From the NCBI GenBank assembly GCA_025350305.1, contig JANXYC010000144.1:1-47238 (forward strand): 47,238 nt of DNA, in the 5' to 3' direction. Numbering within the stretch: position 1 is the stretch's first letter; each line of letters opens with the position of its first letter. This document shows, one piece after another, positions 3,029 through 35,934 of the stretch. Made by a program: the position numbers and the translations under genes. The DNA comes from Cyclobacteriaceae bacterium. GTDB lineage: Bacteria; Bacteroidota; Bacteroidia; Cytophagales; Cyclobacteriaceae. The notes under the pieces were generated by a model. The model was not told the DNA's origin. It saw only the letters and a program-made list of their open reading frames with translations, and did not search any database.

Positions 3029-4312
3029 TCAAAAGTTCGCCGAACCGGCAGCCTTAATAGTATGGTCCAAATCATCGTTCGTCAGGGAATCAGACAAAAA
3101 CCAGGACTCAAAAGGAGAAGGTGGAAGATAAACTCCATTCTCTAACATCCCATGAAAGAATTTTTTAAAGGTGCCGTTGTTACCAGCGGTCGCGGATTTG
3201 AAATCGGTAACTTCTTCCTTACAAAAATGCACACTGATCATGGAGCCGAGCCGGTTGATGTTATACGATAATCCTTTCTTACTGAGCGCTTCCTTCAAAC
3301 CTTTTTCAAGATATGCTGTCTTTTTTTCAAGCTCTTTATAAATACCTGGGTTCTCCTTTAATATGGAAAGTGTGGTAAACCCGGCGATCATCGCCAATGG
3401 ATTTCCGGAGAGTGTTCCGGCCTGGTACACGTCACCCAACGGGGCAATTTTATTCATGATTTCCCGCTTCCCGCCAAATGCACCCACCGGCAAACCACCG
3501 CCAATAATTTTTCCAAACGTAACAAGGTCGGCTTGAATACCATAAATTTCCTGCGCTCCACCAGGTGCCAGCCGGAAACCTGTCATCACTTCATCAAAGA
3601 TCAATACACTGCCAACGCGATCGCAAAGTGAACGCAAATGCTGGAGATAGCCGGGCTTGGGAAGCACACAGCCCATATTCCCGGCCACGGGCTCGACAAT
3701 GATCGCAGCCAGTTCACTTTTGTTTTGATCCACCAGTCGCTCGACTTCTTCAAAGTTGTTAAATGAGGCAACCAATGTATCATCGGTAACAGCAGCGGGA
3801 ATTCCGGCATTTACTTTGATATTCAACGTAGCAACTCCGCTTCCTGCCTTTTTCAAAAAAGCATCGTTGTGTCCATGATAGTGTCCCTCGAATTTGATGA
3901 ACTTCGACCGGTTGGTATAACCCCTGGCCAATCGCAATGCCGACATGCAAGCTTCTGTTCCCGAATTAACAAACCTGATCATATCCAAACCCGGCACCAT
4001 GCTGATGATCAGTTTTGCCATGTCAGTTTCTTGCAGGGTAGGCGTACCAAATGAAACCGCCTTATCTGCCTGCTCTTTTATTGCTTCAATAACCTTCGGA
4101 TGACCATGACCAAGAATCATCGGACCCCAGGAATTAATGTAGTCGATGTACCGGTTGCCATCAGCATCAAACAGATAAGCTCCTTTGGCAGTTTCCATAA
4201 ACAGAGGAGTACCTCCTACTTGTTTAAATGCCCTCACGGGTGAGTTAACGCCTCCCGGAATTACCTTCTGCGCTTCGGCGAATAATTGTTCGCTGTTGGT
4301 TGTCTTGATCAA
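3029..4312 (-). CDS. hemL: Glutamate-1-semialdehyde 2,1-aminomutase
   Basis: HemL converts glutamate-1-semialdehyde to 5-aminolevulinate in the cytosol, the second step of the C5 heme pathway. The 427-residue protein has the usual length of the family. It begins with the conserved [23 protein letters not shown] region, has the PLP-contacting IFDEV at 238-242 and the Schiff-base lysine at 268 in [14 protein letters not shown]. The start codon is TTG at 4310-4312: there is no upstream in-frame ATG, and the first internal ATG would remove conserved residues. It is the last gene of the hem operon, 33 bases after hemB, and ends three bases from the convergent protease gene. Confidence 0.96.
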
Positions 4313-7264: not shown

Positions 7265-7926
7265 AACTTCTGGGTGATTTTACTATCATGAAATTCTGTG
7301 AGTAAAATTTTACTATCTGGATACGAAGGGCAAAAGGTATTGAAGATCCCATGTTCGTTCAGATAAGAAACCGTCGTCGGACCGATGCAGGCAAAAATGG
7401 TTTGATCGGAAAATGCATTATTCTTCATCAAACTTTCGACAGCGCGTGGACTAAAGACAAAAGCTACATCATATAATTTTTCAAGTATTGGAAATGTAAG
7501 CCGGCTCTCATGCGTGATCACCTTTTCAATAGTAACGGGACGACCTTTTAATCCCATTTCTAACTCATCCCGGTGATGGTCGCCACAAAAGTAAAGCACG
7601 TGTCGAATGTTTTGATGGCTTACCTCCAATACAAGCGCTTTCATATTTTCAAAACACTTTATTTCAGATTTTACTCCAATTTTTTTTAGTTCATCCGACA
7701 TCCAGCTACCAATACAATAGATGGCCCCCGGCGCCAGATAGCTAAATGTTTGAACGGTGTGCCAGGAATTGCGGCTTGAAATAATCCATGCATCACTCGC
7801 CTGCGGTACTGATTTTACTTTGACAGGAGCTATGTTCAAGGCTTCGATCACGTCATAGTGCCAGCCCCAGAATTTGATTAAATCCAGATTGGATGAAGAG
7901 AGTTTCTTTGTGATTACGGCATTCAC
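7261..7926 (-). CDS. hemD: Uroporphyrinogen-III synthase
   Basis: HemD closes hydroxymethylbilane to uroporphyrinogen III with inversion of ring D. The sequence (221 residues) is divergent, as is usual for this family. The pattern still fits: a first half with DAWIISSRNSWHTV, the alternating strand-helix order of two Rossmann-like domains, and the second-half signatures FVFSPRAVESL and IFACIGPTTVSYL. Its position between hemC and hemE supports the call. It overlaps hemE by four bases and follows hemC after 31 bases. Confidence 0.88.
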   Translation of the reverse strand: MNAVITKKLSSSNLDLIKFWGWHYDVIEALNIAPVKVKSVPQASDAWIISSRNSWHTVQTFSYLAPGAIYCIGSWMSDELKKIGVKSEIKCFENMKALVLEVSHQNIRHVLYFCGDHHRDELEMGLKGRPVTIEKVITHESRLTFPILEKLYDVAFVFSPRAVESLMKNNAFSDQTIFACIGPTTVSYLNEHGIFNTFCPSYPDSKILLTEFHDSKITQKF

Positions 7927-11452: not shown

Positions 11453-12352
11453 ATGCAGCCTACACTGGAGCGCCACGCTGGAAGACTCAAGGAGCCGGTC
11501 AGTAACAAATCGGTTCTTTTTGAAAAAGATGATTTATCCTTGTCAATTTTTGAAAACCACACCGACCAATTAGTCTCCTTCGAAAGTATCATTTACCAAC
11601 GCATTATTCACTTTTACTTTTGCCTGGAAGGCAGCGCCATTTTTGGTTTCGGACCACATTATAGCCGGGAGATTGTTCAGAAAAAAAATTATTTTTTTTA
11701 CAATCCTGAAAAAGACTTGCCATTCCAACTCCAACTGGCGCCACATGCAAAAATGGTTTTTCTCACCATTTCATTGGAAAGCCTCCATCAGTTATTCATT
11801 CACGAACCTCTCCCCTTTCTGAAACCTGAGAACATCAATCAGAAATTTTACGATGAGCGGGAGATACCTTCCCATCTGCTCGTGGAATTAAACCAACTGT
11901 TTAATATCCAGTTAAGCGACAATGCCAATCGGCTTTTCTATCAGGGCAAAATTCTCGAACTGCTTGCTTTGTATTTTTCTGAAAAAAAACCAAATACAGA
12001 AAGTTGTCCATTCCTGAACGACCAGGACACCGTGCGGAAAATCAAAAACGCGAAAGAGCATTTGCTAAAGCATCTGATCAAACCACCCAGCCTAAAAGAT
12101 CTGGCACGATTGGCGGGATTAAACGAATACCAACTAAAAGCCGGCTTCAAAGAAATTTACGGCAACACAGTTTTTGGCTATTTGCTCGATCATAAGCTCA
12201 ACAACGCCCGTGTTTTACTCGATTCAAAAAAATACCAGGTGGCCGAAGTCGCGTACCAGATCGGCTACACCAATCCAAGCCATTTCATTGCTGCCTTCAA
12301 AAAGAAATTCGGCATCACCCCGAAGAAGTATTTGATGAAGCATGCTGGCTAA
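11453..12352 (+). CDS. AraC-family transcriptional regulator
   Basis: This gene encodes 299 residues. The C-terminal 90 or so residues form two helix-turn-helix motifs of the AraC type: SLKDLARLAGLNEYQLKAGF and VAEVAYQIGYTNPSHFIAAF, closing with KKKFGITPKKY. The N-terminal part is a ligand- or cofactor-sensing domain that I do not recognise in detail; PchR-like regulators of siderophore uptake have this layout. It lies just before a FecA-like receptor in the same direction, so it may control that receptor in response to its iron chelate (inference). A TATTTTTG sequence at 11390-11397 could be its promoter. Confidence 0.88.
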   Translation: MQPTLERHAGRLKEPVSNKSVLFEKDDLSLSIFENHTDQLVSFESIIYQRIIHFYFCLEGSAIFGFGPHYSREIVQKKNYFFYNPEKDLPFQLQLAPHAKMVFLTISLESLHQLFIHEPLPFLKPENINQKFYDEREIPSHLLVELNQLFNIQLSDNANRLFYQGKILELLALYFSEKKPNTESCPFLNDQDTVRKIKNAKEHLLKHLIKPPSLKDLARLAGLNEYQLKAGFKEIYGNTVFGYLLDHKLNNARVLLDSKKYQVAEVAYQIGYTNPSHFIAAFKKKFGITPKKYLMKHAG

Positions 12353-34675: not shown

Positions 34676-35191
34676 TTAGAATGTATAGCGTATGCCTAAT
34701 CCACCCCAGCTGTTGACAAACCCGCGATAGGGGCCGAATTCAAAAGAAGGCTGCCAATCCAGTGACAGATTGATGGGTGCGCCGGTAAACTTGTAATCAA
34801 GGCCTAACACACCATCAATGCCGACGTACGAACCGGAGTTTCCATAGGGATAATATTTATCATAGTAGGTGTTATAAAATCCCACGTGCGCTCCAGGGCC
34901 AACATACCATTTCAAACCCGGCGCTCCTTCAAAGTCAAAGTGAAACTCGTACAGTCCGGTGATTCTGGTGCCTCTACTCCAGAAGTAAGCGATTCCTTCC
35001 AGGGCGCGGTTGGTTGAAACAAAATGCTTAACGCTGAGACCACCCCCATCGCCCCATAACTTAACACCCAATGCCGTGATGTAGGAACTCGTTTCATTTT
35101 GAGGTTTTGTTGTTAACCGGTTGTTTTGTGCTTTTGCGGTTATCCCTGCCATGAGAAAAACCAACACTGCAATCATTCCTAACTTTTTCAT
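34676..35191 (-). CDS. Small outer-membrane beta-barrel protein
   Basis: This gene encodes 171 residues with a signal peptide (MIAVLVFLMAGITAKAQ). The mature part shows alternating hydrophobic strands with aromatic ends (LGVKLWGDGGGLSVKHFVS, GLKWYVGPGAHVGFY, FVNSWGGLGIRYTF) and ends in phenylalanine, as outer-membrane barrels do. About eight strands fit the size. Function is unknown. A GTGGAAT sequence lies on the minus strand at 35237-35244, about 45 bases before the start, and a strong terminator follows. Confidence 0.75.
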   Translation of the reverse strand: MKKLGMIAVLVFLMAGITAKAQNNRLTTKPQNETSSYITALGVKLWGDGGGLSVKHFVSTNRALEGIAYFWSRGTRITGLYEFHFDFEGAPGLKWYVGPGAHVGFYNTYYDKYYPYGNSGSYVGIDGVLGLDYKFTGAPINLSLDWQPSFEFGPYRGFVNSWGGLGIRYTF

Positions 35192-35325
35192 TTTTTATTT
35201 AGTTGAGTAGTTGATAAATATTTTGGTGCTGCTTTCATTCCACGTGACCGAATCAAAAAAAGCCAGTACTCATCAATCCATTTCTAACATACACAATATC
35301 AGGTAGATTGAGTAGATTTTAAAAA

Positions 35326-35529
35326 GGGGATGATAGAACTTACGGGTTCAGTCATCCCCGAACGAACTTGTTCTTTATGTACCAGAGAGGAAAAGAGAAC
35401 TTACGGGTTCAGCTGTTCCTTACTAACCTTCAGGTTCAGGAGAAAGAGAACTTGCAGGTCCAGCTTTCTCCGGAGCAAAAATTTGTTTCTGGCATCAAAT
35501 GGAATCAGAACTTACGGGTCCAGGATTCC
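35326..35529 (-). ncRNA. Array of four tandem hairpins with a conserved loop
   Basis: Four units lie at 35326-35359, 35388-35420, 35439-35471 and 35501-35529. Each has the 17-base core AGAACTTACGGGTTCAG (or close: AGAACTTGCAGGTCCAG, AGAACTTACGGGTCCAG), flanked by a stem of different sequence in each unit: GGGGATGA/TCATCCCC, AGGAAAAG/CTGTTCCT, GGAGAAAG/CTTTCTCC, GGAATC/GATTCC. Within the core GAAC pairs with GTTC; in units 3 and 4 the change to GTCC keeps pairing as G-U only on the minus strand, which suggests a minus-strand RNA. The array lies between the duplicated tail of the gene at 35617 and the outer-membrane protein gene. It may be a processed RNA, a protein-binding array or a repeat family; this is not known. 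Confidence 0.5.
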
Positions 35530-35546: not shown

Positions 35547-35618
35547 TTACAAGAGAAGAATTAACAACAAAATAATAATTATTACTGCACCTACTGAAAG
35601 ATAGACTCCACCACTTTT
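35547..35618 (-). pseudogene. Partial duplicate of the C-terminal segment of the gene at 35617
   Basis: The open stretch encodes KSGGVYLSVGAVIIII followed by a leucine-rich end and a stop, a near copy of the C-terminal segment of the next gene upstream (SGGIYLSVGAVILIIVLLI). It has no start and directly follows that gene's stop. It looks like what is left of a tandem gene copy after a deletion. Confidence 0.7.
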
Positions 35619-35934
35619 ATAAAAGAATGATTAACAAAACGATAATCAGAATTACCGCGCCAACTGAAAGATAGATTCCTCCGCTTGAATCCATTGATTT
35701 CCGGATTGCTTTTACCTCTTTTCTAAGCGCCTTCTTTTCAGTTCTGGTCATTGAACTTTTATCCATTGCTTTGATTTCCTCCAAACGGCTTGTCAATTTT
35801 TGAGCTTCTGCTGCATACATTGTTTCTGAATGATTGGTCAATCTTGAATTGCCTGCCAGATCTTTGGACTGAGACGTCTGCGCCACTGTAATAAAAATAA
35901 CCAGTAAGACGGCTTTGAGTAGATTTTTCATTTT
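35617..35934 (-). CDS. Small secreted or membrane-anchored helical protein
   Basis: This gene encodes 105 residues from the ATG at 35932-35934; the longer frame upstream lacks coding features. It has a signal peptide (LLKAVLLVIFITVAQTSQS), a charged helical middle (AQKLTSRLEEIKAMDKSSM, then RTEKKALRKEVKAIRKSM) and a C-terminal hydrophobic helix (IYLSVGAVILIIVLLIILL). This layout belongs to a small-protein family common in Bacteroidota with no known function. Its tail is duplicated just downstream. Confidence 0.75.
   Translation of the reverse strand, partial: KMKNLLKAVLLVIFITVAQTSQSKDLAGNSRLTNHSETMYAAEAQKLTSRLEEIKAMDKSSMTRTEKKALRKEVKAIRKSMDSSGGIYLSVGAVILIIVLLIILL

Follow-up and report, generated by a model that had tools for sequence, protein, structure and literature searches.

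ANTAR-target RNAs, the substrates of EutV, NasR and AmiR, are the described RNAs nearest in form to the hairpin arrays reported here. The available parts of two accounts (PMC3369931, PMC8164766) describe tandem pairs of stem-loops with conserved hexaloops on stems that vary, close to an intrinsic terminator or overlapping with it, with A at loop position 1, G at loop position 4 and a linker of 2-25 nt between the stems; the examples given there lie in 5' leaders upstream of the regulated genes. The present arrays share with them at least two tandem stem-loops with hexanucleotide loops, but are found past stop codons and in 2-8 copies. The A1 and G4 of the ANTAR targets occur in 0/4 loops of the window (the whole stretch of DNA analysed, 47,238 nucleotides) and in 0/4 loops of its counterpart in the congeneric genome G051; the window loops have C at position 1 and U or C at position 4. 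The 74 loops pooled below also lack A1 and G4, but the loop pattern used to collect them excludes both. The linkers between neighbouring stems in the window are 29, 18 and 28 nt long; hairpin spacing is close in the phage and Adhaeribacter arrays.

Several other systems resemble the arrays in single respects. CsrB and CsrC carry 18 and 9 copies of the CsrA-binding motif, respectively (PMC4347634, available portion). The multiplicity of one short motif is shared with the present arrays, but CsrB and CsrC are separate RNAs whereas the hairpins described here sit 3' of genes, and GGA, part of the CsrA motif, is found in 0/8 loops of the window and G051. The Roquin and Smaug elements of eukaryotic 3' UTRs, which are sometimes tandem, are recognised by their loops while their stems vary; their loops and their domain of life differ from those of the present arrays, and homology is not implied. 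Phage boxB elements are usually single hairpins in early leaders. Their protein-recognised loop, bound by the N peptide, is a GNRA-like penta- or hexaloop, CUAACC in phi21 (PMC12550061, in excerpt), and differs in sequence from the CYGYAA loops of this study. The TAACTGA repeats of Beggiatoaceae, Cyanobacteria and some Bacteroidetes are intergenic and patchy and have been proposed to bind a post-transcriptional regulator; according to the accessible sections of the report (PMC4679880), they are direct heptamer repeats that mostly precede start codons, unlike hairpins past stop codons. The GUCCY-hairpin, a candidate motif of Bacteroidetes and Proteobacteria (Weinberg 2010; PMC2864571), was compared by its table entry; GUCC occurs in only some of the present stems (GUC-CCGUAA-GAC).

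The first-pass annotation knew of no named family with the core of these hairpins, in agreement with Rfam 15, which at gathering threshold gave no match over the window, over loci L009, L170 and L171 or over 11 further loci. Lenient E-values likewise produced nothing over the scanned arrays, and a known RNA family was rejected on these grounds. Among the matches listed from the open-licence part of PubMed Central, no work on the loop or the array was recognised.

Four hairpins and their stems in the window

Positions 35326-35529 of the window contain four hairpins with a common core, four different outer stems and core spacings of 61, 51 and 60, as the first-pass annotation had it. The pattern AGAACTTRCRGGTYCAG occurs exactly four times in the window's assembly (4.2 Mb, 305 contigs), each time within the array. 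On the minus strand, the unit consists of an outer stem, a CU / U internal loop, GRAC, the hexaloop CYGYAA, GUUC, and the returning outer stem. Hairpin 4 (35501..35529, minus strand), the first in the RNA, has a 6 bp outer stem and reads GGAAUC-CU-GGAC-CCGUAA-GUUC-U-GAUUCC. It is followed by hairpin 3 (35439..35471, minus strand) with an 8 bp outer stem and the loop variant CUGCAA, GGAGAAAG-CU-GGAC-CUGCAA-GUUC-U-CUUUCUCC, and by hairpin 2 (35388..35420, minus strand), which pairs at 7/8 bp with one C-U mismatch, AGGAA(C)AG-CU-GAAC-CCGUAA-GUUC-U-CU(U)UUCCU. Hairpin 1 (35326..35359, minus strand), the last in the RNA, has an 8 bp outer stem and an internal loop of CU / UA, as opposed to CU / U in hairpins 2-4: GGGGAUGA-CU-GAAC-CCGUAA-GUUC-UA-UCAUCCCC.

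A U-run lies 3' of hairpin 1 (35316..35325, TTTTTAAAAT on the minus strand) and gives the array a terminator-like end. The earlier argument against terminators from a lack of T runs is contradicted here, since the last minus-strand hairpin is followed by TTTTTAAAA in the window and by TTTTTTTAAAA in G051. The stem and U-run of hairpin 1 were recognised by eye; the automatic terminator scan has no entry for them, probably on account of the interrupted stem. Hairpins 2-4 have no U-run.

The outer stems belong to their own hairpins. When the four 5' flanks were matched with the four 3' flanks in all 24 ways, the natural order scored highest (29.5; runner-up 25.0), and none of 20,000 flank shuffles reached this score (mean 11.7, maximum 23.5). 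Folding compared with shuffled sequence was more pronounced on the minus strand (z -3.55) than on the plus strand (z -2.08). In an alignment of the eight hairpins of the window and G051, the inner GRRC/GUUC stem is seen to be paired in 32/32 cells on the minus strand, where the replacement of A by G (GGAC; GGGC in G051) keeps G-U pairing to GUUC, as had been noted for the core variants; on the plus strand, 6/32 of the inner-stem cells would be A-C mismatches. Repeats of the CRISPR, REP or BIME kind are conserved including the stem, and here the outer stems differ in 4/4 window copies. The window array is almost certainly an RNA element, and its hairpins are best read as minus-strand RNA.

The array lies on the 3' side of a minus-strand gene (35617-35931) for a protein of 104 aa that looks by eye like a small secreted or membrane protein and has no Pfam match above cut-off. 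Directly 3' of this intact gene is a minus-strand remnant of 70 nt (35547..35616), which corresponds to the 3' end of another copy and is 77% identical. Both copies are whole in G051, so that the larger part of one copy was apparently lost in the window lineage. Beyond the end of the array follows a minus-strand gene (34676..35191) for a protein of 171 aa, beta-barrel-like by eye and without a Pfam match. A coding origin of the array, as an 81-aa plus-strand ORF across it, was rejected because the frame is not kept in G051, where a hairpin spacing of 60 has become 58 and the ORF measures 55 aa.

Within the genus, the array was found in 2/62 genomes, the window's own and G051. The array of G051 is in a syntenic position; it likewise has four hairpins, and the small gene is present there in two intact paralogous copies. 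Its stems show compensatory changes in hairpin 2 (G-C to A-U) and in hairpin 4 (A-U to U-G); hairpin 3 has lost one stem pair and changed another to G-U. A covariance test against shuffled sequence, which the first-pass annotation had proposed, came out in favour of structure: an alignment of six hairpins (A3) has 12 double-change cells compared with a shuffled mean of 4.7, and 0/500 shuffles reach this number. Two further genomes, G010 and G054, have what by eye are the same genes next to each other, with no array between them. Eight more genomes (among 390) had a single R1 match each at E <= 0.01 and were not counted.

A hexaloop on arbitrary stems in other lineages

A search for two cores in about 85,000 species genomes returned 107 stretches, of which two were kept: L066 in Adhaeribacter and L092 (contig JANYKP010000430.1, Cyclobacteriaceae bacterium GL140_5), with the same hairpins as the G051 array. 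Most of the other stretches, among those listed, repeat a unit in direct tandem and show no stem variation; L116, which got past the cluster filter, is also a tandem repeat, with a unit of 42 bases. An order-wide triple pattern matched in 6/390 genomes with no accepted array, and L175, the only one of the six loci to pass the cluster filter, is a near-identical 42-base repeat. Locus L103, in a metagenome-assembled genome of Spirobacillus cienkowskii, has repeats spaced 66 bases apart on the reverse strand (1268-1532); the stretches that separate them vary, and the locus looks CRISPR-like by eye.

Adhaeribacter aquaticus DSM 16391 has two arrays, each 3' of a paralogous gene for an SH3-like secreted protein (Pfam SH3_3, match below its cut-off). 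The CYGUAA loop is mostly kept in these arrays and the stems are wholly changed (GAGC, AGGC, AAAC, GAAC, AAGC); the second array (L066b) also has deviating loops, TTCGTAAG at 3207. The 17-nt loop core described in the first-pass annotation recurs in the window as stated, but as the conserved unit it was rejected because the Adhaeribacter stems differ: what is conserved is the hexaloop CYGYAA (CCGUAA in most cases) and, mostly, its closing C-G pair; the stem is otherwise arbitrary, and GAAC/GUUC is a variable stem in other genomes. The double pattern is present in 3/8 Adhaeribacter genomes, with nine arrays altogether. G710 and G714 have sister arrays with unequal numbers of copies and with compensated stem changes; between L228 and L221, the closing pair changes from C-G to U-A under an unchanged loop. 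A stretch of L221 (1935-2160) has a below-threshold score to an Rfam microRNA family (61.6 bits compared with 139.7) and is probably a long palindrome.

A covariance model (R2) was trained on Adhaeribacter hairpins only (alignment A4, 32 distinct hairpins, selected for at least four contiguous pairs from 46 Adhaeribacter sites, so that the pairing of its inner stems cannot count as independent evidence). In the window, with default filters and up to E = 10, R2 found the four array hairpins and nothing else, at E-values of 5.6e-5, 2e-4, 0.0042 and 0.87, the fourth hairpin being weak. Run on the entire genome of the window, R2 gave four matches at E <= 1, of which ranks 1, 2 and 4 belong to the array; of its three matches in G051, two belong to the array there. 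Among 395 genomes of the phylum, R2 had matches at E <= 0.1 in 57, a number little higher than the approximately 40 expected from E-values this rough; single R1 or R2 matches were not counted, and clusters were inspected among the R2 sites at 52 loci (L300-L351) and 20 further stretches. Five hairpins lie 3' of a gene that by eye encodes a lipoprotein, in a genome of the same class (G890). In another family of the phylum, G988 has eight hairpins 3' of dnaK and two 3' of dnaA, and G1034, of another genus in that family, has one hairpin 3' of dnaK and a two-hairpin cluster elsewhere. Further clusters comprise two hairpins in G1185 and three in G1090. Related arrays thus exist beyond the window, in G051, in Adhaeribacter and in further lineages, where the first-pass annotation had advised looking for them.

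The pooled set comprises 16 arrays from nine genomes with 74 sites, the G1034 pair being left out; the sites were picked by the loop pattern CYGYAA only and not by pairing. Contiguous stem pairs average 5.14 per site, compared with 1.96 (maximum of 5000: 2.64) when the 3' flanks are swapped across all sites and 3.37 (maximum 4.08) when they are swapped within arrays. At least four contiguous pairs are present in 64/74 sites, with 22 distinct 4-bp stems among those 64; some of the other 10, with fewer than four, re-pair past a mismatch. Pairing so far above the swapped and shuffled controls upholds the proposal of the first-pass annotation that the co-varying stems reflect selection on the structure of RNA or single-stranded DNA.

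On the mRNA-sense strand of the 74 sites, G-U cells outnumber A-C cells by 13 to 4; 16/16 pooled arrays are sense to the upstream gene, and in many of them the last hairpin is followed by a U-run. These observations argue against an element acting at the level of DNA, as mobile hairpins or as recombination or uptake sites in single-stranded form. The patchy distribution and the shifts in copy number between sister arrays would suit such an element, but a search of phage and plasmid records with the window array found nothing, and its derivation from any named phage or plasmid was rejected for that reason; we consider a DNA-level function very improbable.

The preferred reading concerns the RNA. 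The loop is conserved within arrays (across lineages this conservation is partly ascertained, since the genome searches required this loop), the stems covary, and the arrays are sense to, and past the stop codons of, unrelated genes, with the first loop about 25 to 170 nt past the stop codon of many different genes in the arrays measured. A loop-binding factor at mRNA 3' ends would fit a fixed hexaloop repeated on arbitrary stems, in sense orientation, past the stops of unrelated genes and in phages; the probability that the arrays offer several loop-binding sites to a putative trans-acting factor at mRNA 3' ends, and in this way control the fate of the message, is by our estimate about 0.5. 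The four window hairpins would then be a 3'-UTR element of a minus-strand mRNA, made of copies of one recognition unit, the CYGYAA hexaloop on a stem of indifferent sequence, and the last copy would double as an intrinsic terminator. The trans-acting Bacteroidota factor, probably an RNA-binding protein, would bind the loop, and several copies would lend avidity and so determine the fate of selected messages, by stability, localisation or titration of the factor. To our knowledge, few RNA-binding regulators of Bacteroidota are known; a loop-specific repeated element past stop codons, in several Bacteroidota families and in phage contigs, could serve as bait for one.

CCGTAA accounts for 64 of the 74 sites, followed by CTGTAA (7), CTGCAA (2) and CCGCAA (1). 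A fixed six-base loop on any stem would also suit a kissing partner, a small RNA carrying UUACGG that pairs with the loops; yet the variants CUGUAA, CUGCAA and CCGCAA (10/74 sites; 1/4 in the window) would weaken such pairing, and RNA-RNA recognition of this kind appears improbable.

A third possibility is that the arrays are themselves the regulator's decoy, a small RNA or sponge, either released from a 3' UTR or transcribed from a promoter of its own, that titrates a loop-binding regulator as CsrB and RsmZ do for CsrA. Four to eight near-identical loops per RNA would be apt for this role, as would the relation between L334 in G1034 and L352 in G988. These two loci, from two genera, follow different genes (by eye, a VOC family gene and dnaA) and have the same loop with a first stem changed from GGCU/AGCC to GGUC/GACC; about 20 bases ahead of the first hairpin, with the sequence GCCAGAACAYCGCGTCCCGCC, are conserved between them, as they would be in a stand-alone RNA gene. 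Both loci may encode a separate small RNA that carries two CCGUAA hairpins. Elsewhere, the position of the first loop shortly past the stop codons of many different genes speaks against a separate RNA; in the window, a scan for sigma-70-type sites, which does not cover Bacteroidota promoters, had no match in the gap between gene and array, and the sponge has no known target set. As a general account of the arrays, it seems unlikely.

Terminators and loop stability

A further alternative holds that the arrays are passive 3'-end hardware, fail-safe terminators or hairpins that block exonucleases, with a loop favoured for fast folding or stability in the manner of UUCG and GNRA and with no specific factor. 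The U-run after the last hairpin of many arrays would be expected of such hardware, and many single copies of the hairpin are terminators. Four other Adhaeribacter genomes have a single hairpin of this type, AAGGTGAAC-CYGTAA-GTTCACCTT with a U-run, 3' of or between genes. The single hairpin lies 3' of the SH3-like gene in L230, L231, L243 and L235; in G711 (L232, L244), it lies between convergent genes, and the loop on the strand of the SH3-like gene is UUACGG. GYAA could moreover adopt a GNRA-like fold, and hexaloops of this kind exist (PMC12550061, in the excerpt cited above).

Internal hairpins such as 2-4 of the window, however, keep the loop without a U-run, and the loop is rare among the terminator-like hairpins of the same genomes. 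Counted on both strands, it closes 1/92 terminator-like hairpins in 400 kb of G390 (the lone case is 3' of a gene that is ClpC-like by eye), 0/54 in 434 kb of G000 and the window, and 0/19 in 323 kb of G988; a generic terminator loop was rejected for this rarity. The nearest-neighbour energy model does not favour the loop either, with 2048/2560 hexaloops more stable, and within this model a thermodynamically special loop was likewise rejected. A scan for at least three hairpins with any hexaloop in 300 nt (1.157 Mb, a sample known beforehand to contain both the dnaK array and the window) gave 12 entries, compared with 0 in block-shuffled sequence. The dnaK array accounts for two of them (both strands) and the window for one, which leaves nine others. 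The window entry has three hairpins with two distinct inner 4-bp stems; the nine others have two or three distinct stems, and five of them are tight repeats at 8-10-base spacing.

Phage contigs

The strongest evidence for passive hardware comes from named phages. In Flavobacterium phage immuto (L401, at about 18,530), the hairpin GAGAGC-UUCG-GCUCUC with a T-run lies 3' of the major capsid gene, a UUCG terminator in the same position as paired CCGUAA hairpins in related contigs; 150 of the 160 kb of immuto contain no CCGTAA hairpin of at least five pairs and one CTGTAA hairpin of five pairs. Microcystis phage Mel-JY01 has an ordinary terminator 3' of its capsid gene. Since both phages carry other terminators there, the element is dispensable 3' of the phage capsid gene. 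Weighed against the internal hairpins, the energy model and the rarity of the loop among terminators, a purely passive role is in our judgement rather unlikely.

The related contigs were found in a scan of viral sequences for GCC-CCGTAA-GGC followed by a second C-CCGTAA-G, which returned eight stretches. Seven of these have a second stem of 6-13 pairs, beyond the demand of the pattern, whereas two permuted-loop controls gave seven viral stretches, none of them with a second stem of more than four pairs. In 5/8 stretches (two of which, L398 and L399, are nearly identical in sequence), the first loop lies 18-24 nt past the stop of a T4-like capsid ORF, assigned through the annotation of matches in L395 and L396 and by eye in the other three. 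Among named phages, immuto, with its Flavobacterium host, comes nearest to these contigs (74-75% in the part that matched), from which we infer that their hosts are Bacteroidota. Viral triple patterns yielded no cluster of such hairpins, and the phage pattern with a GGTC stem had 0 matches.

The paired hairpins 3' of capsid genes suggest that the unit is valuable in late phage expression, and together with the related arrays in the phylum they suggest an undescribed signal that is read at message ends. With a loop-binding factor as the preferred reading, phages of these bacteria would use the same signal 3' of their capsid genes. In its broadest form, as a Bacteroidota 3'-UTR code in which a dedicated RNA-binding factor reads tandem CYGUAA loops on messages for small envelope proteins, dnaK and dnaA, and which T4-like phages exploit 3' of the capsid gene, the proposal is tentative, and we would sooner doubt than accept this joint claim as a whole. 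If true, it would amount to a bacterial counterpart of Roquin- or Smaug-like 3'-UTR regulators, with copy number tuned via the gain and loss of hairpins; the arrays make it testable whether eukaryote-like, loop-reading 3'-UTR regulation occurs in bacteria. On the minus strand of the contig L393, CCGTAA hairpins lie 3' of small ORFs in two separate places (loops near 11504 and 7890); near 7890 there are two hairpins, the last with a T-run.
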